From: Gammaproteobacteria bacterium
GTDB taxonomy: Bacteria > Pseudomonadota > Gammaproteobacteria > Thiohalomonadales > Thiohalomonadaceae
DNA length: 64,000 bases
Assembly (NCBI GenBank): GCA_026196275.1
Contig: JAPHTQ010000023.1
Coordinates: forward strand, 1 to 64,000
Direction of reading: 5' to 3'
The position numbers and the translations under genes are program-made. The notes under the pieces were generated by a model. That model saw only the letters and a list, made by a program, of their open reading frames with translations. It was not told the DNA's origin and made no database searches. This document shows positions 21,199-39,856 of this stretch, piece after piece (within the stretch, counting starts at the first letter, position 1; every line of letters begins with the position of its first letter).

Positions 21199-22634
21199 GA
21201 TGGTATCGGAATGGTTGCGGTGAAGCAGGTTTCGTCATCCCTGTTGGCGGCTTCAATGGTGCCGCCGAGCTGGGTGACGATTTGGTAACAGACCCATAGC
21301 CCCAAGCCGTTGCCATCGGCACGGTAGTGCACGAAGGGTTCGAACAGATGTGACATCTGTTTTTCCGGAATCGGCTCGCCGCTGTTGCAGATATGCAGCA
21401 CCAGCTTCCGTGTATCGGTAGTGACCCGGCAGAAGACCCGCCCGCGGGATGGGGTCGCCTTGACCGCATTGAGCAGCAGGTTGATGAGAATCTGTCGGAT
21501 CAGTGAGGCGGAGAGGGGGACGGTTCCCACTCGGACGTCCCACTTCAGTTTCGCCTGTTGGCGTTGGATGTCGGGGGTGATGAGGGTGCGGATGTCGTCC
21601 ATATCCTCGGGACCGAAGTCACGGCTGCTCTGGCGGGCTTCCACCAACAGGGCCGAGACGGTGTCCTTGATCTGCAAAAGCCCCCGTTCAAGCAGTGCCA
21701 GAGTTTTATCAGTCATCGCGTCGTTGTGGCCGTAGCGCTTCTGGGTGCTGATGGTATTGAGCATGCCGCCGAGCGGGTTATTGATTTCATGGGCGATGGA
21801 GGCGGTGAGCTGCCCCACCGCCGCGAGCCGCTCGGTGGCGATCACTTGCTGCTCCAGGCTCTGTTTGATCTGCAGTTCGTGCAGCATCGCCTTGAAGCGG
21901 GTGCCGACCTGGCCGATCTCATCCTTCGACTCGTACAGATCGCAGTGAAGGTTGTCGGGCGATTCACGGCCGATGCGTCCTAGACAACCGGCCAGCTTGA
22001 CCAATGGATCGGCCAGGCGCGTCCCCCAGTACCAACTCAGCGGCAGTAGTGCCCCGAGTACGATGAGTGTGGCGATGGCCGCACGTCCGGCAAAACGGAC
22101 GAAGCGGGGGGTGAAGCCCTCTCGCGGATAGCTGATCACCAGTGTGCCGAGACGGACCTTGTCGGAGATTATTGGAGTGGTGACGTAGAGGTGCTCTGTC
22201 TGTGGCAGGTCCAGCACCTGGGAGGTGGCATCGCTGTTCTGCCGCAGCTGTTGCTCCAGCAGGGCAAATTCGGCACCGGCGGTCGTTAGGGGAGAGTGCA
22301 TCTGAAACCGTTCGGGGTCGGAGGCCACATAGATATTATTATCATTGTTGATGATCAGGATATTCTGTGCCTGTAACGAGGAGCGGGTGAGCGCGGCGGC
22401 GCTGAATGGGGTGCGGACGATCTCGAAGGCGTGCCAGATATCGTCCTTGAGTATGGCCGGGACCAGGGTGTGCGCCATGACTCCGGCCAGCCCCTCTGCG
22501 TTGGCAATCAGATCCTGCTTCAGATCGTCATAGGCGCGGAAAATCAGAGCGGCGGTAATGGCGAAGGAGGTGATCAGGATCAGGACGGTGCCGCGTAGAG
22601 GGATTTTGTAGCGGAAGCTCAAATCACGGAACAT
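21195..22634 (-). CDS. membrane sensor histidine kinase
   Basis: About 479 residues from ATG 22634; an upstream in-frame extension to 22772 would run into the PhnD-like gene and is rejected. Transmembrane helices at residues ~15-35 and ~210-230 flank a periplasmic sensor domain of about 170 residues; a HAMP-like linker follows. The H-box is LTASIAHEINNPLGGML, then N-box LLLNAVKA and G-box GNGLGLWV-type sequence. It overlaps the PhnD-like gene by 11 nt and the regulator by 4 nt. It probably receives the signal from the periplasmic binding protein and phosphorylates the sigma-54 regulator. Confidence 0.88.
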   Translation of the reverse strand: MFRDLSFRYKIPLRGTVLILITSFAITAALIFRAYDDLKQDLIANAEGLAGVMAHTLVPAILKDDIWHAFEIVRTPFSAAALTRSSLQAQNILIINNDNNIYVASDPERFQMHSPLTTAGAEFALLEQQLRQNSDATSQVLDLPQTEHLYVTTPIISDKVRLGTLVISYPREGFTPRFVRFAGRAAIATLIVLGALLPLSWYWGTRLADPLVKLAGCLGRIGRESPDNLHCDLYESKDEIGQVGTRFKAMLHELQIKQSLEQQVIATERLAAVGQLTASIAHEINNPLGGMLNTISTQKRYGHNDAMTDKTLALLERGLLQIKDTVSALLVEARQSSRDFGPEDMDDIRTLITPDIQRQQAKLKWDVRVGTVPLSASLIRQILINLLLNAVKATPSRGRVFCRVTTDTRKLVLHICNSGEPIPEKQMSHLFEPFVHYRADGNGLGLWVCYQIVTQLGGTIEAANRDDETCFTATIPIPS

Positions 22635-23496
22635 GCCTGAATGCTCCAATCGTATGCGCCATCTCGGCGATATCCTCATAGGCAGCCGGATCGCCGGAGG
22701 TGAAACCGTCGAGATTGAGCCGGTCGAGCAGTGATGCGGCGGTCGGATCGCTGCCCATGCCGAGCAGCACATCGCCCATCTGGCTGTTCAGTGTCGCGGA
22801 GACGGTGGGGCCGGCCACCAGCGGCGGGAAGCCGAACTCTCTTGAACGGGTTACCACCCGGGTTGCGCGGGTGATCTCCGGGTTGAATCGCTGCATACTC
22901 TCCCAGACATAGCCGTCCACATGGGCACCGCCCGCCAGACCGACACTGACCGCTTCGATCGCGTTACGGTGGCCGCTGGTGAAGAAGGTCTTGCGGAAAA
23001 AGGTGTCTGGATCGATACCCTGCTGTATCAGCTGAAAACGGGGCACCAGAAAACCGGAGTTGGAGTCGGGATCGGCATAGGCGAAGACTCGGTCACGCAG
23101 GTCGGTAAGAGTGTTCGTTGCGGTATCCCGTATCGGTACGATGAGGTAGGAGCGGTAGAGTGGTTTTCCCTGGAAGAGCGGTACCGCAGTCAGTTGCAGG
23201 CGGGAGCGGTTGGTGACGTAGGGGAGGCCGCAGATCCAGGCAAAATCGAGTCTCCGGGCAAGCAGGTTGTTGATGATGTCGCGATAGGTGTTGCTCTGTT
23301 CGAACTGTACCGGACGTTCGAGATGCCGCTCAAGATAGTCGCGCCAGTCACGGATAAGCGAGGTTCGCTCCGTCTGGAACACGGGGGTGATGCCGATGCG
23401 TACCGGTGCCTGTTCATCGGCGCGTACCATCCGGTGCGACGCCAGCGTTGTGGCGGCGATGTACAGGAGCAGTTGGCGACGGTTTAGCATGGACAT
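22624..23496 (-). CDS. periplasmic PhnD-like ligand-binding protein (sensor component)
   Basis: 290 residues with an N-terminal signal segment (RRQLLLYIAATTLASHRMVRA). The body matches the phosphate/phosphonate-binding PhnD family: VRIGITPVFQTERTSL, LARRLDFAWICGLPYV, and a later YADPDSNSGFLVPRF and FFTSGHRNAIEAV. There are no ABC permease or ATPase genes, so a sensing role is more likely than transport, as for AioX, ArxX or the PhnD-like domain of TtrS. The only cysteine of the mature protein is Cys89 in WICGLPYV. Arsenite binding by AioX is known to need a conserved cysteine; whether Cys89 is equivalent needs an alignment. The ATG at 23490 is an alternative start. Confidence 0.85.
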   Translation of the reverse strand: MSMLNRRQLLLYIAATTLASHRMVRADEQAPVRIGITPVFQTERTSLIRDWRDYLERHLERPVQFEQSNTYRDIINNLLARRLDFAWICGLPYVTNRSRLQLTAVPLFQGKPLYRSYLIVPIRDTATNTLTDLRDRVFAYADPDSNSGFLVPRFQLIQQGIDPDTFFRKTFFTSGHRNAIEAVSVGLAGGAHVDGYVWESMQRFNPEITRATRVVTRSREFGFPPLVAGPTVSATLNSQMGDVLLGMGSDPTAASLLDRLNLDGFTSGDPAAYEDIAEMAHTIGAFRHVP

Positions 23497-23604: not shown

Positions 23605-24582
23605 TCAGCCGCCTGTAATGGCCATCAGGCGCCGGCCACGTGTGGGTGCTTGATTGAAATGGTGGTGTCCCGGTTTGTGCGCCAGCGCATGGAGGATCGC
23701 CTGGCGCACCGCCTCGTCGTCGGCGCCCGCGTGCAACATTTCGCCCAGTTCCACGCCCCCGATGCCGTCCAGACAGGTATGGAGCGTTCCGGTGGCGGTG
23801 AGCCGTACCCGGTTGCAGCTGGCGCAAAAGTGTTGCGACAGGGGGGTGATAAGCCCGAGGCGCAACCTGCCGTCACTACTCTGCCAGTAGCGGGCGGGGC
23901 CGCCGCCGTCGAGTTGTGTCTCGCAGAGATCGAAACGTACCTGCAGACGTTCCAGAATCGCCGCCATCTCTGCCGGACGGGAGTAGATGTCGCCCATGGG
24001 CATCGGCTCGATGAGACGCAGGATATAACCGCGACGGGCGCAGAACGCCGCCATCGCCTCCACGTCATGGTCGTTGATGCCTTCCATCACCACCATATTG
24101 ATCTTGATGGGGCCGAGCCCGACAGCATCGGCACTCTCCAGTCCTGCCCGGATTCGGTTCAGTACATCTGCGCCGGCCAGTTTTTTGAACCGTGCAGGGT
24201 CGAGACTGTCGAGGCTGACATTGATGCGTTTCAGGCCGGCCGCCTTGAGTGCGGCGGCATGGCGTTCGAGCAGGACGCCGTTGGTGGTCATCGAGATATC
24301 CTCGATGCCGGGCAGGGCGGCGATCCCCCTGACCAGTTCGGGCAGGTCTCGCCGGACCAGAGGCTCGCCGCCGGTGAGCCGTATCCGTCGGATACCGAGA
24401 TCGGCAAAGATGGCGGCCAGGCGGGTCAGTGCCGCAACATCGAGGAGGTTGGGCGGTTCCGGCGGCGCGCCGTCAGGCAGGCAGTAGCTGCAGCGCAGAT
24501 TGCAACGCGCCGTTACCGACAGGCGCAGATAGTTGGTCAGGCGGCCGTGCCCGTCTTGGAGTATTTTCACTGTACCCGTCAC
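23605..24582 (-). CDS. moaA: GTP 3',8-cyclase (molybdenum cofactor biosynthesis)
   Basis: 325 residues from GTG 24582. This radical-SAM enzyme makes 3',8-cyclo-GTP in the first step of molybdopterin synthesis. The SAM cluster motif CNLRCSYC is near residue 27, followed by LTGGEPLVRRDL; the C-terminal second cluster has CASCNRVRLT and a downstream Cys (LHTC). The protein ends in the conserved Gly-Gly. A longer GTG start at 24642 is possible but has no ribosome site and would place the candidate sigma-54 promoter (24619-24634) inside the gene; GGGG upstream of 24582 supports the shorter form. It is divergent from the molybdoenzyme operon and probably co-induced with it. Confidence 0.9.
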   Translation of the reverse strand: MTGTVKILQDGHGRLTNYLRLSVTARCNLRCSYCLPDGAPPEPPNLLDVAALTRLAAIFADLGIRRIRLTGGEPLVRRDLPELVRGIAALPGIEDISMTTNGVLLERHAAALKAAGLKRINVSLDSLDPARFKKLAGADVLNRIRAGLESADAVGLGPIKINMVVMEGINDHDVEAMAAFCARRGYILRLIEPMPMGDIYSRPAEMAAILERLQVRFDLCETQLDGGGPARYWQSSDGRLRLGLITPLSQHFCASCNRVRLTATGTLHTCLDGIGGVELGEMLHAGADDEAVRQAILHALAHKPGHHHFNQAPTRGRRLMAITGG

Positions 24583-24618
24583 ATGTTGTCCCCAACGTTG
24601 TCGTTTCCAAATGATTAC

Positions 24619-24634
24619 AGCAGGAAACGGGCCA
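24619..24634 (-). promoter_or_regulatory. candidate sigma-54 promoter of moaA
   Basis: On the minus strand TGGCCCGTTTCCTGCT matches the sigma-54 consensus TGGCACG-N4-TTGCW at 10 of 12 fixed positions, with both invariant GG and GC at the correct spacing. Transcription would start near 24608, about 25 nt before GTG 24582. The palindromic activator sites lie 85-215 bp upstream. Confidence 0.55.
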
Positions 24635-24687
24635 TGTTCCACAGGGGGCGCCTGTTCCCCCCGTTTCTACCTATTCAGCTTCGGGTT

Positions 24688-24827
24688 GTTACGTAACGGT
24701 AACGCGTGTCGTTCGCTGCGGCGACGATCCCGCGTGCTATCCGCGCTGCTGAGGAGATCACACGGCCGTTACCAACAGGTAACCCCTTGCAGACGATAGT
24801 GAGGCAAATAAGTTACCGAATGGTAAC
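24688..24827. promoter_or_regulatory. cluster of three GTTACC-N4-GGTAAC palindromes (candidate activator sites)
   Basis: GTTACGTAACGGTAAC (24688-24703, one mismatch), GTTACCAACAGGTAAC (24768-24783, perfect) and GTTACCGAATGGTAAC (24812-24827, perfect). The last two are 44 bp apart, about four helical turns, hence on the same face. They lie between the divergent moaA and molybdoenzyme promoters at distances usual for enhancer-binding proteins. The same palindrome recurs upstream of the porin at 35.92-35.97 kb. This 24583-25024 spacer otherwise holds no gene. Confidence 0.7.
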
Positions 24828-24968
24828 GAGGTGATGTCGATCCGATATGAGGCGGATTATCCTCGGCCACCAGTTCCACACCGCTGTTCTTACTGTCCCC
24901 CGATCTGAGGCCATTTATAGCGGACGGCCGGGTCACTCCAAGCCCTGTCAGCACGCTCTGTCTGGAGT

Positions 24969-24984
24969 TGGATCGGTTCTTGCT
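24969..24984 (+). promoter_or_regulatory. candidate sigma-54 promoter of the molybdoenzyme operon
   Basis: TGGATCGGTTCTTGCT matches TGGCACG-N4-TTGCW at 10 of 12 fixed positions with exact GG/GC spacing. Transcription would start near 24994, about 30 nt before the ATG at 25025, which has a strong AGGAGGAG. The three palindromes lie about 170-300 bp upstream of the start. Confidence 0.6.
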
Positions 24985-25024
24985 GCTAGCGAAAGCGAAT
25001 CAAACAAAAACAGGAGGAGTGGGG

Positions 25025-25735
25025 ATGAGCGAAGAGTTGAGAATGTCGCCGCGTGAGACCCGTGGAAAAGCGGGATTGCGGCGCTACGGGATGGTCATCG
25101 ATCTGCGTCGCTGTATCGGCTGCGATGCCTGTATGGTCGCCTGCAAGGCTGAATACGATGTGCCACTGGGAGTATTCCGCACCTGGGTGCCCTACCGTGT
25201 CGTGGGCAAGTATCCGACGGTCAAAAAGCAGTTTCTGCCGCGTCTCTGCAACCACTGCGACGACCCGCCCTGCGTACGCGCCTGCCCGGTGGGCGCCACC
25301 TACAAGGTGGAGGATGGCGGCTTCGTGCTGCAGCACTACGACCGCTGTATCGGCTGCAAGGCGTGCATGGCCTCCTGTCCCTACAACGCCCGCTTCATGC
25401 TGCCGGAGCACCGTACCCGCACCAACATCACCAGCGTGGTCGACAAGTGTACCTTCTGCTACCACCGCGTGATCCAGGGACTGGTGCCCGCCTGTGTACA
25501 GACCTGTGTCGGTCGTGCCCGCGTGTTTGGTGATATGAACGACCCCAACAGCGAGGTCTCGCAACTGGTCGCCCGTCACGCCACCCAGACCCTGCGGCCT
25601 GAGCAGGGAACCAAACCGCAGGTCTTCTACATCGGCGCCGATCGCAACATGACCGAGTATGGCCGCAACATCTACGATGCCAGTCCCGAACAGGATGACG
25701 AGCGCGCCGTATTCAACCGTAATCATAAAGTCTAG
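25025..25735 (+). CDS. four-cluster 4Fe-4S electron-transfer subunit of a molybdoenzyme (DmsB/PsrB/TtrB type)
   Basis: 236 residues. Four 4Fe-4S motifs can be traced: CIGCDACMVACKAE (~30), CNHCDDPPCVRACPVGA (~75), CIGCKACMASCPYNA (~108) and CTFCYHRVIQGLVPACVQTC (~142). This is the standard B subunit passing electrons between the NrfD anchor and the catalytic subunit. There is no Tat signal of its own, so export with the catalytic subunit is likely. It opens the ten-gene operon. The order B-C-A is that of ttrBCA (tetrathionate) and srdBCA (selenate) and differs from psrABC and from the arx operon, which has two Fe-S genes. Confidence 0.9.
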   Translation: MSEELRMSPRETRGKAGLRRYGMVIDLRRCIGCDACMVACKAEYDVPLGVFRTWVPYRVVGKYPTVKKQFLPRLCNHCDDPPCVRACPVGATYKVEDGGFVLQHYDRCIGCKACMASCPYNARFMLPEHRTRTNITSVVDKCTFCYHRVIQGLVPACVQTCVGRARVFGDMNDPNSEVSQLVARHATQTLRPEQGTKPQVFYIGADRNMTEYGRNIYDASPEQDDERAVFNRNHKV

Positions 25736-25747
25736 GGAGGGTCAACG

Positions 25748-26605
25748 ATGCTTGACTATAACGTATTTCACACCATCGCCTGGCCCGGAGCGTACGCCTG
25801 GTACTTCTTCGTCATCGGGATCTCCGTGGCGCTCTTCTTCTTCTCGGCGCTCTCCTGGTTTCGCGAGGAGTTCCAGCCGCTGCGAAAGTCGGGGTTTTAC
25901 CTCTCCTTCGTGTTGTTGGTTGTCGGCGGGCTGCTGCTGATCAGCGACTTGTCGCAGCCGATGCGCTTTCTCAACATGATCAATCCCGCCTACCTGAAGT
26001 TCGATTCGCCGCTGGCGTGGGGCAGTCTCAACCTGATCACCTTCGGCATCGCCTCGGTCGTCTACCTGTTCTTCATGAACAAGGGCGATGACGGTCTGGC
26101 AAAGAAAGCGGCGGTAATCGGTGCGCTGCTGGGCCTGGGACTGCCGATCTATACCGGCTTCGACCTGACCGTGCATCAGCACCGGCCGGTTTGGAACACA
26201 CCGTTGATGCCGGTGCTGTTCGTGGCGCTCTCTCTGCTCTCCGGTGCAGCGGTTGCCTCGTTCCTGGCCAAGGGCAATGAGAAACTGATGGTGATGCTGC
26301 GCCGCTTTATGCTTTGGGCCGGTGGCGCCACTGCAGCGATGCTCATCTCCCTGCTCGGTACCACCGCCTACGGCGGTTCGGCCGCGGAGATCACTTTCAT
26401 GTTCATGACATCAGGAACCATGGGGATGATCTTCATCGGGCTGGGGATGCTGGTAGGGCTGGCCGCCCCCATCGCACTGCTGCTGGCGCCGGTAGGACGA
26501 CAGCCGATGGGCGTAATGGCCGCCGGTGTGCTGCTGCTGGTCGGTGGCATGGCGCTGCGTTACGCCATTCTGATCGGGCCGCAAATCGTCCATACCTACT
26601 ACTAA
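25748..26605 (+). CDS. NrfD/PsrC-like membrane anchor, quinone-interacting subunit
   Basis: 285 residues with about eight transmembrane helices, beginning with WPGAYAWYFFVIGISVALFF and ending with GGMALRYAILIGPQI. The N-terminal helix pattern and the SDLSQPMRFLNMINPAYLKF region are those of NrfD-family subunits, which exchange electrons with the quinone pool from the periplasmic side. AGGGAGG precedes the ATG, 12 nt after the Fe-S gene. There is no heme-ligating histidine array of the cytochrome b kind. Direction of electron flow (oxidase or reductase) cannot be told from sequence. Confidence 0.88.
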   Translation: MLDYNVFHTIAWPGAYAWYFFVIGISVALFFFSALSWFREEFQPLRKSGFYLSFVLLVVGGLLLISDLSQPMRFLNMINPAYLKFDSPLAWGSLNLITFGIASVVYLFFMNKGDDGLAKKAAVIGALLGLGLPIYTGFDLTVHQHRPVWNTPLMPVLFVALSLLSGAAVASFLAKGNEKLMVMLRRFMLWAGGATAAMLISLLGTTAYGGSAAEITFMFMTSGTMGMIFIGLGMLVGLAAPIALLLAPVGRQPMGVMAAGVLLLVGGMALRYAILIGPQIVHTYY

Positions 26606-26636
26606 AAACCGTGGTGAAAGCGGAGGAGTGAATACT

Positions 26637-29270
26637 ATGTTAGAAATGACACGCAGAACTTTCATGAAGGCCAGCGCCGGCACCACGGCAGCGGCATTGG
26701 CAGCACCGTCGATGCTCCATGCGATGGAGAATGAGCTGGGCGGTCGCGACTACAATCCCGATACGCTGAAGGAACGCAAGGCGATCCCCACCAACTGTCA
26801 CGTCTGTAACATTCAGGACGGGGCGATGGCCTTCGTCGAGGATGGCCGGGTGGTCAAGCTGGAGGGCAACCCCAACCATGTCTCCACCCGTGGCCGACTC
26901 TGTGCCAAGGGCAATGCCGGGATGTGGTACAGCTACGACCCGGACCGGATCATGTATCCGCTCAAACGCGTCGGCAAACGGGGCGAGGGCAAGTGGAAGC
27001 GGATCAGCTGGGACGAGGCGCTGAGCGAGGTGACCGCCCGTATCGACGATGTGCTGAAGAATGGCGACCCCAACGAGATCATGCTGAAGTACGGGCGTAA
27101 CCGCACCGGCGGTGTGCTGCACCGTTTTATGGATACGCTGGGATCGGCTACCGTCCTCAACCACACCTCGGTGTGCGAATCATCCAAAAAGGTGGGGATG
27201 GAGCCGACCTGGGGCCCCGACATCGAGACCCCGGACTTCGCCAACAGCAAATATATCCTCAACTTCGGCTCCAACATCCTGGAGGCGGCCTACTTCCACA
27301 ACCCCTATTCGCAGCGTATCACCGAGGGGCGTGTGGACAGCAACGCCAAGATCGTCACCTTCGACGTGCGCCTGTCCAACACCGCCGGCTTCTCTGACGA
27401 GTGGATCCCGGTCTATCCCGGCACCGACGGGGCGGTGGCGCTGGCTATCGGTCATGTGATCCTGCGCGAAGATCTGCAGGACTCCGGCTTCATCACCGAC
27501 TGGACCAACGTCACTGTCGAGGAGCTCAAGGAACACTACCGGCAATTCACGCCGCAGTGGGCCGAGGAGCTCTCCGGTGTGCCGGCCGATACCATCGAGC
27601 GCATCGCCCGTGAGTTCGCCCTGGCCAAACCGGCCACCACCTACACCTACCGCGGTCCGGCCAAGCACCTCTACGGCGCCTACAACGAGAAGGCCTGCAT
27701 GATGCTCTCGATCATGACCGGCAACGTGGAGAAGCGCGGCGGCTACTGTCTGCCCCGCGGTATGGGCTACGGTCAGCCGCAGCCGGAACCGCCGAAGCCT
27801 AAGCACGGTTCGATCCTGAAGAATCCACCGGAGTTTCCGCTCGCCTCGCATCACGTCAGCCACCTGGTGCCGTTCTGGATCGCCGAGGGGCGGCAGAAGA
27901 TCAGTGTCTATATCAACTATATGGATAACCCGGTCTATACCAACCCGGGCTCCGAGACGGTGTGGGGCGAGCTGTTCCGCAACGAGGAGCTGATCCCCTT
28001 CCGCGTGGTGCTCACCCCGTTCATGGGTGAGGAGGCGCAGACTGCGGATATCATTCTGCCGGAGCTGCCCTACCTGGAGCGTTGGGAGCCGGAGTCGATG
28101 CCCAACTCCCTGTGGCCGTGGCTGGGGATCCGTCAGCCGGTGATCGAGCCGCTGGGCGAGGGCAAGGAACACCGCGTCTATCTGCAGGAGATCATCCACC
28201 GCCTCGACCCGGACGGATCCCGCGGGATGAAGCAGTACTGGAACTTCAAGGACTCCGAGGACTACATGCGCCAGCAGTTCGAGAACGTCCCCGGGCTGAA
28301 GGAGGTCGGCGGTCTCGACTGGCTGAAGAAGCACGGCGTCTGGCCCGTCTACGGCAAGCTCAACCCGGCCACCGGCAAGATCAGCGACAAGACCGGTCGC
28401 GAGATCCGCGCCGAGTACGGCCTGCACATGAAGGAGCTCTCCGCTGCCGATATGCTGGGCGCCAGCGTGGATGAAAAGGGGATTATCCACAAGAACGGCA
28501 AGGCGATCGGCGTGCAGAGGCACGGCAAGAACTACGTCGGCTTCCCCAGCGGCAGCCGGCTGATCAATGTCCGTGTCGACGAGTGGGCGGAGTACGGCTT
28601 CAATCCGATGCCCACCTTCAAGCGCATTCCGTGGCACGAGAATCTCAAGGATGACGAGATGATTCTCACCACCTACAAGTACAACGTCCACGTGCAGTCT
28701 CGCACCGCCTCGGTCAAGTGGCTGGCGGAGATCGTCCACCGCAACTGGGCGCCGATCAACACCGAAACGGCCAAACGGATCGGCGTGAAGACCGGCGACC
28801 TGATTCGGGTGGAGAGCCCGGTGGGCCACCTGGTCACCAAGGCCTATGTCACCGAGGGGCAGCACCCCAACGTCATCGCCATCTCCACCGGTTGCGGCCA
28901 CTGGGGTTACGGTCGCCTGGCGCAACTCAAGCTCAAGGAGAAGGGCGGCCAGTACGGCGCCCAGGAGGATCCGGACATGAACAACGTCTGGTGGGAGGAC
29001 AAGGGGGTTCACCCCAACAACATCATCCCCGCCGTCGCCGACCCTATCGGCGGATCCGCCGGTTGGTACGACACCGTGGTGAAGGTGACCAAGGCGAAGG
29101 CGGGTGACAAGTATGGCGACACGGAGGCATCCTGGGACAAGCACTTCGAGTGGTACAAAAAAACCATGAGCTTTACCTACGTGGGCGATGCGCACCGCAA
29201 GATGCACCCGGAGATGGCCTCCTGGGCCGGCCCCGATAGTGTCGAGCCCAAAGAGCCATCCGGTCACTAA
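26637..29270 (+). CDS. Tat-exported molybdopterin oxidoreductase catalytic subunit (DMSO reductase family, PsrA/ArrA/TtrA-like clade)
   Basis: 877 residues from ATG 26637 (GGAGGAG 8 nt upstream; GTG 26628 is less likely). Tat signal TRRTFMKASAG at residues 5-15. The Fe-S motif reads C54-x2-C57-x3-D61-x27-C89: position three, normally Cys, is Asp. The following K91 of LCAKG is kept. Cys180 in HTSVCESSKK is the likely molybdenum ligand, as in the PsrA/PhsA/ArrA group. C-terminal cofactor-binding domain includes STGCGHWGYGRLAQ. Sequence alone does not name the substrate: sulfur oxyanion/polysulfide, arsenic and selenium oxyanions are all plausible. It does not look like a canonical ArxA or ArrA, which keep four cysteines. 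Confidence 0.88.
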   Translation: MLEMTRRTFMKASAGTTAAALAAPSMLHAMENELGGRDYNPDTLKERKAIPTNCHVCNIQDGAMAFVEDGRVVKLEGNPNHVSTRGRLCAKGNAGMWYSYDPDRIMYPLKRVGKRGEGKWKRISWDEALSEVTARIDDVLKNGDPNEIMLKYGRNRTGGVLHRFMDTLGSATVLNHTSVCESSKKVGMEPTWGPDIETPDFANSKYILNFGSNILEAAYFHNPYSQRITEGRVDSNAKIVTFDVRLSNTAGFSDEWIPVYPGTDGAVALAIGHVILREDLQDSGFITDWTNVTVEELKEHYRQFTPQWAEELSGVPADTIERIAREFALAKPATTYTYRGPAKHLYGAYNEKACMMLSIMTGNVEKRGGYCLPRGMGYGQPQPEPPKPKHGSILKNPPEFPLASHHVSHLVPFWIAEGRQKISVYINYMDNPVYTNPGSETVWGELFRNEELIPFRVVLTPFMGEEAQTADIILPELPYLERWEPESMPNSLWPWLGIRQPVIEPLGEGKEHRVYLQEIIHRLDPDGSRGMKQYWNFKDSEDYMRQQFENVPGLKEVGGLDWLKKHGVWPVYGKLNPATGKISDKTGREIRAEYGLHMKELSAADMLGASVDEKGIIHKNGKAIGVQRHGKNYVGFPSGSRLINVRVDEWAEYGFNPMPTFKRIPWHENLKDDEMILTTYKYNVHVQSRTASVKWLAEIVHRNWAPINTETAKRIGVKTGDLIRVESPVGHLVTKAYVTEGQHPNVIAISTGCGHWGYGRLAQLKLKEKGGQYGAQEDPDMNNVWWEDKGVHPNNIIPAVADPIGGSAGWYDTVVKVTKAKAGDKYGDTEASWDKHFEWYKKTMSFTYVGDAHRKMHPEMASWAGPDSVEPKEPSGH

Positions 29271-29290
29271 ATCGGACCAGCGGTATTGTG

Positions 29291-29311
29291 GGCCCCGTTC
29301 CGGACGGGGCC
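29291..29311 (+). promoter_or_regulatory. intercistronic GC-rich hairpin
   Basis: GGCCCCGT (29291-29298) pairs perfectly with ACGGGGCC (29304-29311), loop TCCGG, with no T-run. It lies between the catalytic subunit and the accessory genes and could stabilise the upstream messenger part or lower expression of the downstream part. Effect inferred. Confidence 0.5.
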
Positions 29312-29335
29312 GCACTTACTTAAGAGAGGAATACT

Positions 29336-30055
29336 ATGATCGAGTCCAGGGAACAACCCAATACCATTGATGAACTTAAGAGCCGCGCCCACTGGTACCG
29401 GCTGCTGGCGGGCGTCTTCGCCGAGGAGCCGCAGGCGCCCTTTTTGCGCGAGCTGCGCAGTCAGGCGTGCATAGAGTCTCTGGCAGAGGTCGGTGTGAGT
29501 TTCGGCGAGGATTTCCTTGCTACCGATGAAGAGATGCTGCTGGATGATCTGGCCGCGGAGTACACTATGCTGTTTGTCGCCCCCGGTGGCTTCCCACCGG
29601 TCGAATCGGTGCGGCTACAGGGCGGCTACCGCCAGAGCGCGTCCAGTGAGGTGCGCGATGCCTATACCGCCGAGGGGTTCAGCGTGCAGTCCGGGCGTTT
29701 TGCCATCTTCGATGACCACCTTGCCGCGCAAATGCAGTTCGTCGCCGCGCTGCTCGAGCGTCAGGCCGAGGCGTTGGCGGCTGCCGAGGAGCAGGAGGCC
29801 CGGCGTCTGGAGAAGACGGTCAAACGCTTCTGGATAAAGCATCTGGGGCGCTGGTGCCGGGGCTATGCCCAGCTGGTAGAGGAGGCCGCTGAGCACAGCT
29901 TCTACCGCGAGATGGCGCGACTGCTCGACGCCTTCGTCACGGCAGAACTCGATATTATGGGACTGGATGTGGCCGATGAGGATGGCGGCAAGCTTCGTGC
30001 GCCGAAGCCCAAGGCGGTTACCGAGCCAATGCAGTGTGGTGGAGCCGCCACATGA
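29336..30055 (+). CDS. TorD/DmsD-family molybdoenzyme maturation chaperone
   Basis: 239 residues, mostly helical. The EYTMLFVAPGGFPPVESV and FDDHLAAQMQFVAALLERQ segments are hallmarks of the TorD/DmsD/NarJ-like family, which binds the Tat signal of the apo-catalytic subunit until cofactor is inserted. It follows the catalytic gene by 65 nt, with GAGAGGAA before the ATG. Its end overlaps the next gene by 4 nt (ATGA). Its client is most likely the adjacent catalytic subunit. Confidence 0.85.
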   Translation: MIESREQPNTIDELKSRAHWYRLLAGVFAEEPQAPFLRELRSQACIESLAEVGVSFGEDFLATDEEMLLDDLAAEYTMLFVAPGGFPPVESVRLQGGYRQSASSEVRDAYTAEGFSVQSGRFAIFDDHLAAQMQFVAALLERQAEALAAAEEQEARRLEKTVKRFWIKHLGRWCRGYAQLVEEAAEHSFYREMARLLDAFVTAELDIMGLDVADEDGGKLRAPKPKAVTEPMQCGGAAT

Positions 30056-30453
30056 GTCTGTTGCTGTGGGATGAGCTGACCGTGCTGTGGCAGTCGGGCG
30101 ACTTTCGCGGCGTGCACGACTGGATCAACGAGCGCTGGTCGCGCACCGTGCAGGAGTCGCCGCAGGGGGATGCCGATCCCTTTGCCCGCTTTCTGCAGGG
30201 GATGGCCTTCGCCGCCCTGGCGTTCCACTTCGCCGAGGAGCAGAACGGTGAAAGCGCCGCCATCTTTGTCGAGGATGGCCTCGATACCCTGTCGCGGTTT
30301 CCGCCATCCTATGCCGGTGTTGAACTGTCGCCTATCGTCGATGCCCTGGCGGAGCTTCGCCACAACCTGCCATCCGCCGACTCCGGTCTGCCCATCCCGC
30401 CTGTCGTCTCCGGGGTGCGGGCGCTTCGCTTCGCCGGGAGAGTGGTGCAGTGA
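30052..30453 (+). CDS. DUF309-like small protein
   Basis: 133 residues, soluble and helical. The pattern GDFRGVHDWINERW, then FARFLQGMAFAALAFHFAEEQN and LDTLSRFPPSYAGVEL resembles DUF309 proteins, whose role is not established. No signal peptide, cysteine pair or membrane segment. ATG 30052 overlaps the TorD stop (ATGA), and the stop overlaps the next GTG by 4 nt, so it is translationally coupled in the operon. It may be a second maturation helper. The DUF309 match is by eye. Confidence 0.65.
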   Translation: MSLLLWDELTVLWQSGDFRGVHDWINERWSRTVQESPQGDADPFARFLQGMAFAALAFHFAEEQNGESAAIFVEDGLDTLSRFPPSYAGVELSPIVDALAELRHNLPSADSGLPIPPVVSGVRALRFAGRVVQ

Positions 30454-31130
30454 ACGATTGCCGCTTTTTAAGCTGGCGTGACGCCGCCGCAGCCGCCGCC
30501 CAGGAGCCTGGTTACCTTCACGAGGCGGCCGTGTCCGCGGAGGAGCGGCTGGACGGCTGCTCCGTTGTCTCCGCCACGGGTGACCTTGAGCGTGTCGATG
30601 CGCTACTCGCCGCCGGTGCGCAGGAGGTGTTGCTGGGAGAGGGCGCACTGCGCGACAGCACGCTGGTGCGCGAGGCGGTCACCCGCCACGGGGAGCGGAT
30701 CGGCCTCTGGCTGCCGGTGCGTCGCGCTGAGGCCAGTTGGGGGCTCGACACCGTCAGCAATGCCGACTTCAGCACGCTGGCTATCACCAATCCGGTACCG
30801 CGTTGGATGATCTGCCAGGCTGACGGCACGCTCACCGATGTCGACGCCTGCTGGTGGGCGGGGGAGATGATCAAGGCCGGTTGCGGCAAGGTGTTGGTCT
30901 CGGTGGCGACGCCGGAGGATGACGACCTGCTCGCTTGCGCCGAGATGGCGGAGTGCGCTGGGGAGCGTTTCTGGCTCGATGCCGGGTCGGCCGATATCGA
31001 AGAGTTGCGCTTTTGGGTCCGCTACGGCCAGGCGCGACGGCTGGTGCTGCCGGCCGGGAGTGATACCGTTTCGATTCATACGGCGCTCGCACAGCGGCTG
31101 GACGACAGCGAAGGATTTCCAGATGCTTAG
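30450..31130 (+). CDS. HisA/HisF-like TIM-barrel-like protein of unknown function
   Basis: 226 residues. The layout DLERVDALLAAGAQEVLLG, GALRDSTLVREAVTRHGERI, then QADGTLTDVDACWWAGEMIK and RRLVLPAGSD recalls the ribulose-phosphate-binding (beta/alpha) barrel of HisA, but the HisA active-site sequences (the N-terminal ALDLIDG-type strand and the TDISRDG-type loop) are not recognisable. Phosphoribosyl isomerase activity is therefore doubtful. GTG 30450 overlaps the previous stop; the end overlaps the next gene by 8 nt. Its conserved coupling inside a molybdoenzyme operon is unexplained. An unrelated barrel is also possible. Confidence 0.5.
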   Translation: MNDCRFLSWRDAAAAAAQEPGYLHEAAVSAEERLDGCSVVSATGDLERVDALLAAGAQEVLLGEGALRDSTLVREAVTRHGERIGLWLPVRRAEASWGLDTVSNADFSTLAITNPVPRWMICQADGTLTDVDACWWAGEMIKAGCGKVLVSVATPEDDDLLACAEMAECAGERFWLDAGSADIEELRFWVRYGQARRLVLPAGSDTVSIHTALAQRLDDSEGFPDA

Positions 31131-31563
31131 AGCGATATTACTGCTTATGTCGCTACTGTTCAGTACCGGCGCAGCTGCTGAGGAGGTGGTGGATGCCGAG
31201 GCACTGGCGGCGTTGGAGGGGGCCGGGCACTGGCCGGTGGTCGATGTGCGGGATCTCGCCGACCAGAGCCGCGTCCCCATCCCCGGCGCCCTGGAGTTCG
31301 GCCCGGAGTTGGCGCTGAGCGGACCGGTGCTGGTGGTCGGCTCCGAGAACAGCATCGCGCGCTTGACCGCTGTCGCGCTTGAGTCGCGTTTCGACGGAGT
31401 GCAGGCTTACGCCGTTGAGGGGGGGATCGATACCCTGCGTACCATCCGCACCGAACTCCTGCCCTCACTCGGCGGCGACAGCATGCCGGGAACCTTTACC
31501 ATCCCCAGCGACACCTGCCAGCCGGGTCCGGCGCTGCATACCTTTTCCGATGAGGAGCGTTGA
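31123..31563 (+). CDS. exported rhodanese-like protein lacking the catalytic cysteine
   Basis: 146 residues from ATG 31123. A signal peptide (MLRAILLLMSLLFSTGAAA) predicts a periplasmic location. VVDVRDLADQSRVPIPGALEF is the first half of a rhodanese fold; the position of the active-site loop reads VVGSENS (residues 71-77), with Gly where the sulfur-carrying Cys should be. The only cysteine of the mature protein lies near the C-terminus in SDTCQPGP. It is unlikely to act as a normal sulfurtransferase; binding of a substrate or partner is more likely. Its start lies inside the end of the HisA-like gene. Confidence 0.7.
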   Translation: MLRAILLLMSLLFSTGAAAEEVVDAEALAALEGAGHWPVVDVRDLADQSRVPIPGALEFGPELALSGPVLVVGSENSIARLTAVALESRFDGVQAYAVEGGIDTLRTIRTELLPSLGGDSMPGTFTIPSDTCQPGPALHTFSDEER

Positions 31564-31569
31564 GGCGTT

Positions 31570-32640
31570 ATGTCGCTGCCTGTTGGAGATCTGCCTGAAC
31601 TGCGTAATTCGCGCTGTGTGCGCTACCGTTTTCGCTACAGCCAGTGCAGCCGTTGTGCCGACAGCTGCCCGCCGGGGGCGTTGACACCCGGCGAGGAGGG
31701 GGTGGAGCTGGATGTCACACGCTGCAGCGGTTGCGGTCTGTGTGTGCCCGCCTGTCCCGTGGGCGCCTTTCATCAACCCGCCTTCCCGGCCGCTGCCCTG
31801 GCGAAGCCTGCCGATAAACAGCTCTCCGTGGCCTGCAAACCCTCCGGCGAGGAGGGTGATTTGCGTATTCCCTGTCTCGGCGACATCGAGCCGGCGTTGC
31901 TGGCCAGTCTGGCCGTGCGCAAAATCGCCGTAACCTTGCGCGGGGTGGGCCACTGCGCCGAGTGTGCGTATGCGCCACAGGGCGGTGAGGCGCTGCAGTC
32001 ACTGTTGGCGGGCATGGAGGCGCTGGCCGAGTCCGCGCCCGCCCACTGGAGCGCTCCGGTGGTTGGCGGAAACGTCGGTGGCACCGGCTATCGCGCGGAT
32101 CGGCGTCAGCTCTTTCGCCGTTTCAGCAACCGTGCCGTGCAGAGTATTCGTGACGAGGGTGGTGTGGAAGAGGTGCCTGAGCAGGCGATAAGGGCCGCGG
32201 CCCACTTCGTGCCGGCCCGGCGGCAATTGGCGGAACGCGTGCTGGAACGGCTCGACGGGATCGATGCCGGGTCGCCGTTGCCGGCACTGTTCGGGGTCGC
32301 AGCCGTGGCGCCGATTACCGGCCGTTGTACCGGCTGTGAGGCGTGTGCCAGGGTCTGCCCCACCGGCGCCCTGAAGATCGACGAGGCGGAGAGCCGCTGG
32401 GCGTTGCGCTTTCGTGCCGTCCAGTGTGTCGGTTGCGGCGTCTGTATCGAGGCTTGCGGGCCGGAGGCGTTGCAGCTTGAACCGCGTTGGCACCCCGAGT
32501 CTGTTGAGTCAGACTCCTCCCTGCATGAACTCGGACGCTACCGCTGTGAAAGTTGCGGTCGTTTCTTCATCGGACTGGAGAATGGGAGCTGTCCGGTCTG
32601 CCGCGATGACGAAGAGAATTTTGACGCTATATTTGGCTGA
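31570..32640 (+). CDS. polyferredoxin with C-terminal zinc-ribbon-like motif
   Basis: 356 residues, cytoplasmic by lack of a signal. N-terminal pair: an atypical C16-x9-C26-x2-C29-x3-C33-P and a canonical C52-x2-C55-x2-C58-x3-C62-P. The middle part has further cysteines (SVACKPS, IPCLGD, HCAECAY) recalling iron-sulfur adaptor proteins. A second pair follows at about 256-300 (CTGCEACARVCPTG and CVGCGVCIEACGPE). The end has CESCG and CPVC, a rubredoxin/zinc-ribbon-like arrangement. It may move electrons or sulfur inside the cell for maturation of the molybdoenzyme or for TusA. No named family was recognised with certainty. Confidence 0.7.
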   Translation: MSLPVGDLPELRNSRCVRYRFRYSQCSRCADSCPPGALTPGEEGVELDVTRCSGCGLCVPACPVGAFHQPAFPAAALAKPADKQLSVACKPSGEEGDLRIPCLGDIEPALLASLAVRKIAVTLRGVGHCAECAYAPQGGEALQSLLAGMEALAESAPAHWSAPVVGGNVGGTGYRADRRQLFRRFSNRAVQSIRDEGGVEEVPEQAIRAAAHFVPARRQLAERVLERLDGIDAGSPLPALFGVAAVAPITGRCTGCEACARVCPTGALKIDEAESRWALRFRAVQCVGCGVCIEACGPEALQLEPRWHPESVESDSSLHELGRYRCESCGRFFIGLENGSCPVCRDDEENFDAIFG

Positions 32641-32653
32641 GGAGGTGGATAAC

Positions 32654-33046
32654 ATGCAGTGGGAATTTACACCGGAAGAGGTGGTCAAGAGAGAGGTTGA
32701 TTACGGCCTGGAAACGTTTCGCCGCGATCTTTTCGAAGAGGTTGCGGGTAACCTGGGCAGTGATGATGAGAATTTTCTGCAACAAAGTTTCGACCTGATC
32801 TACGACCTTTGCTACTGGGAGGCGACCGGTCGCGAGTTTTCCGATTTTGTGATCACCCTCGACGAAAACGTTCCCCTGGAGGCGCATGTGCTGCAGGCAA
32901 TCAAGGAGCATATGCGCGACAACATCACAATGCTGGGTGCGATCCTCCAGCGGATGATTATGGACGGTGTCGAGAGTGGCCTGGTGCTGGAGCAGGCGAT
33001 AGCGAACGCGGCCGAAAAGCACAAGCTCGCTGTGGCACAAAGCTGA
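32654..33046 (+). CDS. unrecognised acidic helical protein
   Basis: 130 residues from ATG 32654, with a strong GAGGAGGT 7-8 nt upstream that overlaps the previous stop. Rich in Glu/Asp and predicted helical: VKREVDYGLETFRRDLFEEV, then FLQQSFDLIYDLCYWEATGR and IKEHMRDNITMLGAILQRMI. One cysteine, no membrane segment. I do not recognise a family. Its stop shares one nucleotide with the tusA start (TGATG), so it is made together with TusA and could be its partner or a chaperone. Confidence 0.6.
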   Translation: MQWEFTPEEVVKREVDYGLETFRRDLFEEVAGNLGSDDENFLQQSFDLIYDLCYWEATGREFSDFVITLDENVPLEAHVLQAIKEHMRDNITMLGAILQRMIMDGVESGLVLEQAIANAAEKHKLAVAQS

Positions 33047-33306
33047 TGAGCAAGGATACCGGTGGCCACGCAAATCCCCGTGTTGAACGCGAGCTGGACC
33101 TGAGCGGTCTCAATTGCCCGTTGCCGATCCTGAAGACGAAGGCGGAACTGGCTACCATGGCGCCGGGCGAAGTGCTGCGGATCATCGTTACCAACAGCGA
33201 TTCCGTTCGGGAGATCGAGCACTACGCCAAACAGACGGGCGCGGAGTTGCGGCAGGACTCTTCTGCCGGTGACGGCTCCTTCATCTTCTATTTTAAAAAG
33301 GGGTGA
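33046..33306 (+). CDS. tusA: TusA-family sulfur carrier protein
   Basis: 86 residues. The sulfur-carrying motif NCPLPILKTK (Cys about residue 24) and the IVTNSDSVREIEHYAKQTG segment define the TusA/SirA family. TusA proteins carry a persulfide; in sulfur oxidisers they pass sulfur to DsrEFH or Hdr-like complexes, and in E. coli they influence tRNA thiolation and molybdenum-cofactor supply. Here it ends the molybdoenzyme operon, with no dsr or hdr genes in view. That suggests either sulfur substrate handling or sulfuration of the molybdenum centre. Confidence 0.88.
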   Translation: MSKDTGGHANPRVERELDLSGLNCPLPILKTKAELATMAPGEVLRIIVTNSDSVREIEHYAKQTGAELRQDSSAGDGSFIFYFKKG

Positions 33307-33320
33307 CTGTCTCCCCCCTG

Positions 33321-33482
33321 GCAGCCTGTCGGACTTAGGATGCTCCTGCTGCGCCGGTGGGAGAGCGGCCCAAATTTCCCTGATTTGTCGTTGCGTAGAC
33401 CCACTATGCGCCTCGAAATCATAAAAATTTGGTCTTGCTCTCCCACCTTGCTCGCTACGGGCACCTAAGTCCGACAGGCTGC
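33321..33482. repeat. MITE-like palindromic element (162 bp)
   Basis: Perfect 19-bp terminal inverted repeats GCAGCCTGTCGGACTTAGG (33321-33339) and its complement (33464-33482). A second inner pair, GGTGGGAG...CCCAAATTT against AAATTTGG...CTCCCACC (about 33356-33377 and 33425-33447), continues the hairpin. No ORF, no obvious target-site duplication. It fills the spacer between tusA and cysB and could end transcription of the operon. Confidence 0.8.
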
Positions 33483-33530
33483 TAGCATGCCACAGGATTT
33501 CAGCTGGTTTCATCACGATAGAGGTACTCA

Positions 33531-34541
33531 ATGACACTGCAACAATTGCGCTGCATCGTCGCGGTTTCGCGGCAGCGGCTGAACATCACCGCTGCGGCAC
33601 GTGCGCTGTACATGACGCAACCTGGCGTAAGTCGCCATGTCAGGATGTTCGAGGATGAGATCGGTGTCAGGGTTTTCAGCCGCTCCGGCCCGAGCCTCTC
33701 CCATGTCACTACCGCCGGCAAGGCGATCATTGAGCAGGCCGAACAGATCCTTCACGCCTCGCAGCATCTGCAGGATCTGGGCCGCTCACTATCGGATCCC
33801 ACCTCCGGTACGCTGGCCATCGGCACCACGCACACCCAGGCACGATACATCCTGCCTGATGTGATCAGCCGCTTTGTGGGCAGATACCCAAAGGTCAGTC
33901 TGCAGCTCCACCAGGGTACACCGCAGCAGGTGGCAGCGATGGCCGATGAGGGGTTGATCAATATGGTTATCGCAACGGAGGCGATCGAGCGGCACGAGTC
34001 ACTCGTTGCGCTGCCCTGTTATTCGTGGGATTACGCGGTTATCCTTCCCTGCGACCACCCGCTGGCCCGGCAGGGTCAGCTTGACCTGCAGATGTTGTCC
34101 CAATACCCGATCATCACCTATATCGAAGGTTTTACCGGTCGCGCCACCATCGATCAGGCGTTTGCGGCTGAGGAGATCGTCCCGAACATAACGGTTACAG
34201 CGGCTGACGCGGATATCATCAAGACCTATGTGCGTAACGGGATCGGCATCGGCATCGTTGCGAACATGGCCTATGATCCTGAAGTTGATGCGGATCTCTG
34301 CGTTATGGATGGGGCCGGACTCTTTCCTTCCTCTACTACCCGCCTCGGCATCCGACGCGACGCCATTTTGCGTCGTTTCGATCTCGATTTCATCGAGTAT
34401 TTCGCGCCGCATCTCAGGTGCGAACTGGTAGAGCGTGCCGTCGGTGAAAAATCGCAGGCCGCCGTCGATGCCCTGTTTACATCCGTTCCGCACTACGCGC
34501 CCCGGCTGGCGTCGTTTTCCCCCTCACTGGCGACAGCCTGA
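33531..34541 (+). CDS. cysB: CysB-type LysR-family transcriptional regulator
   Basis: 336 residues (E. coli CysB 324). N-terminal winged HTH MTLQQLRCIVAV...ALYMTQPGVSRHVRMFEDEIG; sensor domain with the CysB-specific IGTTHTQARYILPDVI, EGFTGRATIDQAF and VTAADADIIKTYVRNGIGIG. CysB activates sulfate assimilation genes in response to N-acetylserine and sulfur limitation. No cys gene is adjacent, so it may control the global cys set, or may have been placed beside the TusA/molybdoenzyme operon for sulfur sensing. It is oriented like that operon but separated by the palindromic element. Confidence 0.88.
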   Translation: MTLQQLRCIVAVSRQRLNITAAARALYMTQPGVSRHVRMFEDEIGVRVFSRSGPSLSHVTTAGKAIIEQAEQILHASQHLQDLGRSLSDPTSGTLAIGTTHTQARYILPDVISRFVGRYPKVSLQLHQGTPQQVAAMADEGLINMVIATEAIERHESLVALPCYSWDYAVILPCDHPLARQGQLDLQMLSQYPIITYIEGFTGRATIDQAFAAEEIVPNITVTAADADIIKTYVRNGIGIGIVANMAYDPEVDADLCVMDGAGLFPSSTTRLGIRRDAILRRFDLDFIEYFAPHLRCELVERAVGEKSQAAVDALFTSVPHYAPRLASFSPSLATA

Positions 34542-34550
34542 TTCCGAAAT

Positions 34551-34583
34551 AAAAAAATCCGGTGTTCATTGCAAACACCGGAT
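34551..34583 (-). terminator. intrinsic terminator of the porin gene
   Basis: On the minus strand ATCCGGTGTT and AACACCGGAT form a perfect 10-bp stem (plus-strand 34557-34566 and 34574-34583, loop 7) followed by seven T. It also lies just after cysB, but the plus-strand side has no T-run. Confidence 0.85.
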
Positions 34584-34607
34584 AAATCCGCTCTACGGGC
34601 AGTAACC

Positions 34608-34635
34608 GGATGGGCACGCTGCGTTTTGCCCATCC
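34608..34635. repeat. short palindromic repeat (GGATGGGCA/TGCCCATCC)
   Basis: 9-bp arms GGATGGGCA (34608-34616) and TGCCCATCC (34627-34635) around CGCTGCGTTT. The wording is that of a widespread dispersed intergenic repeat of gammaproteobacteria. It lies just past the porin stop codon. Confidence 0.6.
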
Positions 34636-34657
34636 TACATGCTTTCGCTCAGGTCGG

Positions 34658-35665
34658 TTAGAAATCGTAAACCATACCGATGGAGATGCCGGAGGCCTTG
34701 TCCCCGGCGGCGGGAGCTCCCGGGCTGGCACCGTGGCCCCAGTTGAAGGGGTGGTAGGTGCCGCCGTCATCGTTGTCCACCGTGGCGTAGGAGACGTAGA
34801 CGATCGTGTTCTTGTAGAGCGGGTAGTCATAGCCCACGGCAATCATCGTTGCCCCGTCATCGCTGTTTTTTACCCCTTCGTCCGCGGTGGTGTACTGGAT
34901 CTTTGCCGTACCGCTTCCGGCGTTGAAACCGGCACCCAGGGTCATAATGGTGCGGTCGCCATCGTCGACGCCACCCTCATTGGTGTTCTGCACGCCCATC
35001 GCCTTGACGCTTCCCATGCCGAAGTCGTAGCCGGCACTGACCGCTATCACCGACTCCGGTGTACCGCCGGCGGCAAGTGCATCACCCAGGGCGAAGTAGG
35101 TCAGACCGAGATCGACCCCGGCCGCGTTGAAGGTGACGCGGGCGCCGTTGGCACTGCCATCTTCGGTGCCCTGCTCGAACTTGTGGGTCAGGGCGATGGT
35201 GGCGCTGCCAAATGCCGGTAGCACATAATGGAGCGCATCGTTGACACGCCCGGGCATTGCGGTGCCGGTAAAGGTGCCGGCATCACCGACCTGATCAGCG
35301 AAGAGGTTGGCGTCGTAGACGTACTGGTTGGCGGCGGGAAGGCGGCCGGCAAGCAGGGTGCCGAAGCCGCCCTTGAGACCCAGATAGCTATCGCGCGTGG
35401 TCCCCCAGCGTGTATCGGCAGAGCCGTCGTCGCTCATGCTGATACCGCCTTCGAGCTGGAACATGCCAGTCAGGCCGTTCTCGAAGTCGGTGGAACCCTT
35501 GACCCCCAGACGGGATGAGTTGCTGGAGAGGTAGGTGCTGCTGGTGGTGTCGTTATCGAGACTGTCAGCGGAGAGATGAACCTTGCCATAGATATCAATA
35601 TCGGCCATCACCCCCATGGGCAATAGTGCGGCAGATACGGCAACTGCGATTAATTTTCTTTTCAT
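34658..35665 (-). CDS. general trimeric outer-membrane porin
   Basis: 335 residues from ATG 35665; the longer frame to 35737 has no support. Signal peptide MKRKLIAVAVSAALLPMGVMA, then IDIYGKVHLSADSL and SSRLGVKGSTDFENGLTGMFQLEGG, typical of 16-strand gammaproteobacterial porins; the last residue is Phe (MVYDF), the assembly signal. An acidic loop region resembling the constriction loop is visible. The upstream region has a candidate sigma-54 promoter and two copies of the palindrome found at the molybdoenzyme operon, so it probably admits the substrate of that enzyme. Confidence 0.9.
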   Translation of the reverse strand: MKRKLIAVAVSAALLPMGVMADIDIYGKVHLSADSLDNDTTSSTYLSSNSSRLGVKGSTDFENGLTGMFQLEGGISMSDDGSADTRWGTTRDSYLGLKGGFGTLLAGRLPAANQYVYDANLFADQVGDAGTFTGTAMPGRVNDALHYVLPAFGSATIALTHKFEQGTEDGSANGARVTFNAAGVDLGLTYFALGDALAAGGTPESVIAVSAGYDFGMGSVKAMGVQNTNEGGVDDGDRTIMTLGAGFNAGSGTAKIQYTTADEGVKNSDDGATMIAVGYDYPLYKNTIVYVSYATVDNDDGGTYHPFNWGHGASPGAPAAGDKASGISIGMVYDF

Positions 35666-35771
35666 TGGTGCTCCCCCTTGATGGAGTATGGATAAAAACC
35701 AGGGACGGATGACGCTCTCCATCCGTTGGTGTAACAACTGCGACGCCCTGCAGCGTTATCACACAGAGATA

Positions 35772-35787
35772 AGCAATAGCCGGGCCA
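35772..35787 (-). promoter_or_regulatory. candidate sigma-54 promoter of the porin
   Basis: On the minus strand TGGCCCGGCTATTGCT matches TGGCACG-N4-TTGCW at 11 of 12 fixed positions. Transcription would start near 35762, about 97 nt before the porin ATG. It is the best sigma-54 match in the window. Confidence 0.65.
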
Positions 35788-35919
35788 TCTCGTCATCGTT
35801 CATACAGAATAGGGGTGCGCCGGGACTGTTGTGTGGCAAAACATCTGTTATGCCATGTTGGTTCTGCCAGGAACGGCAGTGTTGTTGCTTCCGATATTTT
35901 CTTTCATAATCATTGTCGG

Positions 35920-35968
35920 GTTACCGTTCTGTAACCTTTGGCGGCATACTCCATTACCAATCAGTAAC
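35920..35968. promoter_or_regulatory. two GTTACC-N4-GGTAAC-like palindromes upstream of the porin
   Basis: GTTACCGTTCTGTAAC (35920-35935, one mismatch) and ATTACCAATCAGTAAC (35953-35968, two mismatches), 33 bp apart or about three helical turns. They are about 165-200 bp upstream of the predicted porin start. The rest of the 35666-36162 spacer shows no intact gene. Confidence 0.6.
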
Positions 35969-38585: not shown

Positions 38586-38600
38586 GAGAGGCTCCAGGTT

Positions 38601-39821: not shown

Positions 39822-39856
39822 AAAAAAGTTTTCAACGCAAAGGCGTTAAAAATTCT

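Follow-up and report, generated by a model that had tools for sequence, protein, structure and literature searches.

The 64,000-nucleotide stretch analyzed here (the window) is positions 1 to 64,000 of contig JAPHTQ010000023.1 from a gammaproteobacterium of the family Thiohalomonadaceae (GCA_026196275.1). It carries a minus-strand operon in which moaA is the first gene, followed by genes for a periplasmic binding protein (X), a sensor histidine kinase (S), and a response regulator (R), and a divergent plus-strand operon (B-C-A-D) for a molybdoenzyme; a porin gene lies some distance away. An earlier note made from the sequence had proposed that moaA, the molybdoenzyme operon, and the porin belong to one sigma-54 regulon. 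Our analysis supports that proposal, which held up in each comparative test applied. The palindromic box found at these genes tracks the regulator family over 85 loci, and we consider it very likely that the window holds an arsenite-responsive regulon of the AioXSR/ArxXSR type acting at three promoters, with strong sequence support at two of the three. The genes in question are as follows.

19885..21198, minus strand: R, AioR/ArxR-type response regulator with receiver (PF00072), sigma-54 AAA+ (PF00158), and Fis-type helix-turn-helix (HTH; PF02954) domains
21195..22634, minus strand: S, sensor histidine kinase (HATPase_c/HisKA), its start (MFRDLSFRYK) set by homologue comparison
22624..23496, minus strand: X, AioX/ArxX-type periplasmic arsenic-oxyanion-binding protein (PDB AioX 6esv, E=2e-57)
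23605..24584, minus strand: moaA, GTP 3',8-cyclase (Radical_SAM and Mob_synth_C), likely start ATG at 24584
25025..25735, plus strand: B, 4Fe-4S electron-transfer subunit (Fer4_11)
25748..26605, plus strand: C, NrfD/PsrC-type membrane anchor (PF03916)
26628..29270, plus strand: A, molybdopterin oxidoreductase of an uncharacterised clade, exported by twin-arginine translocation (TAT), with the motif [YFW]GR[ND]R
29336..30055, plus strand: D, TorD-like chaperone (PF02613)
34658..35737, minus strand: porin (Porin_4/Porin_1)

The intergenic regions upstream of moaA, the molybdoenzyme operon, and the porin contain candidate sigma-54 promoters and copies of a 16-bp palindrome, GTTACC-N4-GGTAAC.

24634-24619, minus strand: candidate sigma-54 promoter of moaA-X-S-R, TGGCCCGTTTCCTGCT, 10/12
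24969-24984, plus strand: candidate sigma-54 promoter of the molybdoenzyme operon, TGGATCGGTTCTTGCT, 10/12, with boxes at -201 and -157
35787-35772, minus strand: candidate sigma-54 promoter of the porin, TGGCCCGGCTATTGCT, 11/12
24688-24703: box 1, GTTACGTAACGGTAAC, one mismatch; a conserved aligned island in genomes G010 and G016
24768-24783: box 2, GTTACCAACAGGTAAC, exact (0 mismatches)
24812-24827: box 3, GTTACCGAATGGTAAC, exact, 44 bp from box 2
35920-35935: porin box, GTTACCGTTCTGTAAC, one mismatch
35953-35968: porin box, ATTACCAATCAGTAAC, two mismatches, 33 bp from the box at 35920

On recheck, the coordinates of the three sites and five palindromes and the scores of 10, 10, and 11 of 12 all proved correct, as did the description of the 44- and 33-bp pair spacings as near whole helical turns. 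The earlier placement of the boxes 90 to 300 bp from the promoters failed for moaA, where the nearest box starts 54 bp away.

In pattern searches over the 2.54-Mb genome, the exact palindrome has two occurrences, and both lie in the region that separates moaA from the enzyme operon. It is confined to this locus and is not common across the genome, a point on which the earlier note had staked its proposal. Boxes with at most one mismatch number seven genome-wide, four of which lie inside the two intergenic regions (moaA/enzyme operon and porin). Because boxes with up to two mismatches (56 genome-wide) were no more frequent than in a reversed control (65), only near-perfect boxes can be regarded as meaningful. 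A first-order Markov model of the window's composition predicts 0 exact boxes and 0.07 with at most one mismatch per 64 kb, and in relatives that lack the operon the average is about 0.13 exact palindromes per genome. The idea that the sites arose by chance in intergenic DNA richer in AT can draw on the equality of the two-mismatch count with its control, but it is opposed by the exact sites, their spacing, and the conservation at the porin; already contradicted by the comparative data described below, it is scarcely credible. Sigma-54 matches by themselves are not rarer than chance (four scoring at least 10/12 in the window versus 6.9 expected per 64 kb), and they carry weight because they are adjacent to boxes and conserved.

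Near-perfect boxes elsewhere in the genome were considered as extra members of the regulon and rejected: C4:23712 lies in a coding region and lacks a sigma-54 site scoring 10/12 or better, C37:2583 falls within an MlaA-like gene, though a 10/12 site adjoins it, and C68:9669 and C15:17508 are close to sox genes and have no sigma-54 site. Separately, genome G045, in which X was not searched for, has two exact palindromes 5.9 kb apart (C2:37593 and 43444).

The domains of the sigma-54 activator noted earlier at 19885-21198 beside a kinase and a sensor were confirmed, and the sensor, previously called PhnD-like, can be refined to the AioX type. R is an AtoC-family regulator (receiver, AAA+, and Fis-type HTH) adjoining X and the kinase, which is the arrangement that marks an AioXSR/ArxXSR-type regulon. 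It is 55 to 81% identical to the R proteins of other X-S-R loci, with a conserved recognition region; X is single copy in the genome at E<=1e-30, and rpoN is present. Since the S gene overlaps both X and R, the three genes are probably translationally coupled. Judged by its sequence, the regulator is a three-component system of the AioXSR/ArxXSR type and not an orphan sigma-54 activator.

A scan of named genomes gave 79 loci with a related X, and boxes were counted in 85 X-upstream regions; some of the loci are closely related, so that the counts do not represent independent events. Boxes with no more than one mismatch numbered 74 in the 61 kb of X-upstream sequence versus 22 in the remaining 1.4 Mb, an ~78-fold enrichment, and none of eight control palindromes was found in the same 85 regions. 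Among 216 sigma-54-like sites in X loci, 67 had a box at -260 to -25, versus 0 to 3 for each of ten control palindromes. Neighboring boxes were spaced at 32 to 34 bp (18 pairs) or 40 to 45 bp (31 pairs), with no pair among these loci at 35 to 39 or 46 to 50 bp; the phasing seen in the window is general across X-S-R loci. In different taxa, the box accompanies X-S-R at loci of the aio, arx, and arr types and at those of the new enzyme. An independent case is G009, a member of the same family, in which an unlinked arx operon is preceded by a box identical to GTTACCGAATGGTAAC of the window, with a partner box at a distance of 43 bp and a sigma-54 site scoring 11/12 (boxes at L167 3820-3878), and X-S-R lies on another contig (L168) beside an ArsP-ArsJ-GAPDH island like that of the window.

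AioR of Agrobacterium GW4 binds GTT-N10-AAC, and the 16-bp palindrome GTTCGGATTTCCGAAC is protected in a DNase I footprint (PMC5335332). The window box has the same length and symmetry as this palindrome, and four of the five window boxes fit GTT-N10-AAC, with the box at 24812 fitting the full published motif and that at 35953 departing from it at the first base. By this comparison, the palindrome is an AioR-type box.

Several observations weigh against the regulon reading. The genome encodes nine strong sigma-54 activator domains, so the pairing of R with the box would rest on conservation. Some X-S-R loci (for example, L054, L067, L072, L097, and L109) have no box directly upstream of X, the second porin box (35953) has two mismatches, and the sigma-54 site of moaA-X-S-R is weak, scoring 10/12 with CTGC at -12 and matched only in near relatives. 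The eight activator domains besides R, together with the CysB-type gene at 33531-34541, could be taken to mean that some other protein uses the palindrome as its operator (the CysB-type LysR neighbor, an ArsR protein, or another sigma-54 activator). However, the box follows X-S-R across enzyme types and taxa, whatever else adjoins, and its geometry is that of the proven AioR footprint; we regard control by a different regulator as very improbable.

The nature of the signal was approached through the binding pocket of X. The arsenite-pocket residues of AioX (Y88, C106, Y131, S161, S163, H192, and D210) are all kept in the window X, as Y71, C89, Y114, S145, S147, H176, and D194, and V56 and F57 (AioX numbering), which are absent from ArrX and PhnD, are present as V39 and F40. 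The window X also matches ArrX (E=6e-35, versus 2e-57 for AioX). V56 and S163 occur in the X proteins adjoining the new enzyme and in most of those adjoining arx, as in the window, whereas A56 and T163 stand at these positions in each of the seven arr-linked X proteins. Of the oxyanions offered to AioX and ArxX, arsenite was bound and the nine others were not (PMC5908839). The pocket residues suggest that arsenite is the likely inducer. An alternative is that the system is real and that X senses arsenate, antimonite, thioarsenate, or some other oxyanion, on which the enzyme also acts. The kinship of X to the arsenate-sensing ArrX would fit such a signal, as would the fact that A is neither ArxA nor ArrA and the hint of sulfur chemistry in the TusA gene and CysB-type regulator adjoining the operon; the pocket signature and the binding specificity of AioX and ArxX speak against it, and we consider it unlikely. 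As an observation in its own right, A56/T163 in the arr-adjacent X proteins of L062, L074, L092, L117, L119, and L126 may be a signature distinguishing arsenate from arsenite.

At the enzyme operon, comparison with G010 and G016 (Thiohalomonas) showed the three boxes as islands of identity within a diverged intergenic region, and in other relatives and in a plasmid copy of Azoarcus KH32C boxes and a sigma-54 site stand at the same place before the operon. The arx promoter of the Sulfuricella plasmid pSCD, TGGATCGGTTCTTGCA, is identical to the enzyme-operon sigma-54 site at 15 of 16 bases.

The enzyme itself belongs to none of the arsenic oxidoreductase families with which it was compared. The best NCBIfam match of A is PhsA, at 343 bits (cut-off, 694). 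ArrA (NF041714) scores 198 bits against a cut-off of 1600 and its motif (R/K)GRY is absent; the ArxA motif XGRGWG is also absent, and A falls outside the ArxA clade. AioA (TIGR02693) scores 35 bits versus 359, and the partners of A are Fer4 and NrfD proteins, not a Rieske AioB. In a maximum-likelihood tree, the clade of A (support, 100/100), most members of which carry [YFW]GR[ND]R at the motif position, is separate from the ArxA+ArrA clade (98/99). The gene order B-C-A-TorD-polyferredoxin divergent to X-S-R recurs in about two dozen loci, and loci of the A clade include the window, L024, L026, L027, L030, L049, L056, L100, L106, L118, and others. A single contig (JACRPA010000003.1; L065/L095) holds both a new-type and an arx operon, separated by ~10 kb and each accompanied by a separate X-S-R copy, so their enzymes probably differ in function. 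The proximity of ars genes does not settle the substrate, because its rate at new-type loci (8/28) is about that at arx (3/11) and arr (3/7) loci. It is quite conceivable, and we suggest it tentatively, that B-C-A-D represents a further family of quinone-linked arsenic oxidoreductases beside Aio, Arx, and Arr, one with members as distant as Proteobacteria and a Planctomycetes bin, and that it is induced together with its own dedicated metalloid-oxyanion porin.

The SoeABC-like cluster 2 of Thioalkalivibrio was rejected as an identity for the enzyme, since that protein has no TAT signal and A has one. Molybdopterin oxidoreductases with GR[MHA]K at the motif position form a sister group (L090, L099, L115, L122, L130, L132, and L134) that lies partly near X-S-R, L099 and L090 being behind boxes with a sigma-54 site.

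Porin orthologues with a box and a sigma-54 site occur in nine genomes including that of the window (the others being represented by L027, L125, L123, L109, L097, L057, L063, and G016:C73). Their sigma-54 sites score 10 to 11 of 12, and the upstream boxes have at most three mismatches, several of them paired at 33 bp. In G016, the porin lies on a separate contig from X-S-R and still has a box and sigma-54 site. Porin homologues in five genomes with no X (G001, G006, G028, G038, and G053) have neither element, nor does the homologue in G009, where X is present. In G010 (L140), the box preceding a porin close to a PstS gene lacks an accompanying sigma-54 site, and this case was left out of the count. 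With both elements before orthologues of the enzyme operon and the porin, and absent from the porin homologues of genomes without X, the earlier assignment of these two targets to the regulon holds, and on this comparative evidence the porin is a true member.

The moaA promoter is the least certain of the three. Because moaA leads the moaA-X-S-R operon, this promoter would form an autoregulatory loop. It is possible, if somewhat doubtful, that the regulon comprises only the enzyme operon and the porin, that the site before moaA is a chance match, and that moaA-X-S-R is expressed from a housekeeping promoter. Chance alone would give about seven sites at 10/12 or better per 64 kb, the -12 element is the CTGC already mentioned, and most other loci have no sigma-54 site facing X; moreover, aioXSR of NT-26 is transcribed from RpoD and RpoE2 promoters without induction by arsenite (PMC6011840), which is a precedent for housekeeping-type expression. 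Against a chance match, G010 and G016 have conserved a corresponding sigma-54 site, TGGCGCGCTTCCTGCA, upstream of X, together with the same three boxes. An arsenite response of moaA also has a precedent in Thioalkalivibrio jannaschii, where moaA and a SoeABC-like molybdoenzyme were transcribed more strongly with arsenite (PMC6620896).

Further genes adjoin these operons.

30034..33306, plus strand: DUF309-like, hypothetical, small exported protein, polyferredoxin, hypothetical, and TusA genes, most of them conserved beside A in relatives
33531-34541: CysB-type LysR regulator gene
37626-40858: arsenic island of ArsP-type permease, ArsJ, and ArsJ-associated GAPDH genes

The genes behind the enzyme operon (30034-34541), which include those for the DUF309-like protein, polyferredoxin, TusA, and the CysB-type regulator, might point to sulfur or thioarsenate chemistry. 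The ArsP-ArsJ-GAPDH island (37.6 to 40.9 kb) has no box with at most two mismatches and so is probably under other control.

In the mechanism that we propose, X would bind an arsenic oxyanion in the periplasm, most likely arsenite, and signal through S to R. Phosphorylated R would bind pairs of 16-bp boxes three or four helical turns apart and, from there, activate RpoN polymerase ~100 to 200 bp away by looping, with transcription predicted to start at the candidate promoters. The response would comprise the BCA-TorD operon, encoding a putative periplasmic, quinone-linked molybdoenzyme; moaA-X-S-R itself, which would create positive feedback and raise the molybdopterin supply; and the outer-membrane porin, which may pass the oxyanion or its product.

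The closest known systems share parts of this arrangement. AioXSR of Agrobacterium tumefaciens GW4 and Rhizobium sp. NT-26 has homologous X, S, and R proteins, an RpoN promoter, and a 16-bp GTT-N10-AAC box, and there too R has targets other than the oxidase genes (mcp in GW4). However, the target there is AioBA, the half-site of GW4 mcp is GTTCGG and not GTTACC, the boxes in the window are phased pairs, and we found no porin member in the AioXSR literature searched. ArxXSR/arxB2ABCD (Alkalilimnicola ehrlichii, Sulfuricella denitrificans pSCD, and Azoarcus sp. CIB) likewise pairs a divergent X-S-R with a molybdoenzyme operon that includes a TorD chaperone, and pSCD has a near-identical sigma-54 site and box, with moaA inside its arx operon, but the window has the order B-C-A-D without a separate arxB2, and its A subunit lacks the ArxA hallmarks, as described above. 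ArrXSR has a homologous sensor, and the same box is present at seven arr loci of beta-proteobacteria; the window differs from it in A, as the ArrA score and motif show, and in an X with V56/S163 and not A56/T163. PsrA/PhsA resembles A as its best general family match and in having an NrfD-type anchor, but A reaches only half the curated cut-off, and its predicted control is of the arsenite type.

A switch of this type is already known; the porin and this enzyme family would be new members of this kind of regulon. For a regulator family known chiefly from aerobic arsenite oxidizers, the window provides a testable regulon whose sites are defined to the base, and, by comparison, a single box would serve arx-, arr-, and aio-type enzymes as well as a fourth, uncharacterised molybdoenzyme family. 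With the porin as a member, one can ask directly how metalloids cross the outer membrane, and the box and its phasing may be used to find more arsenic-responsive genes in genomes and metagenomes.

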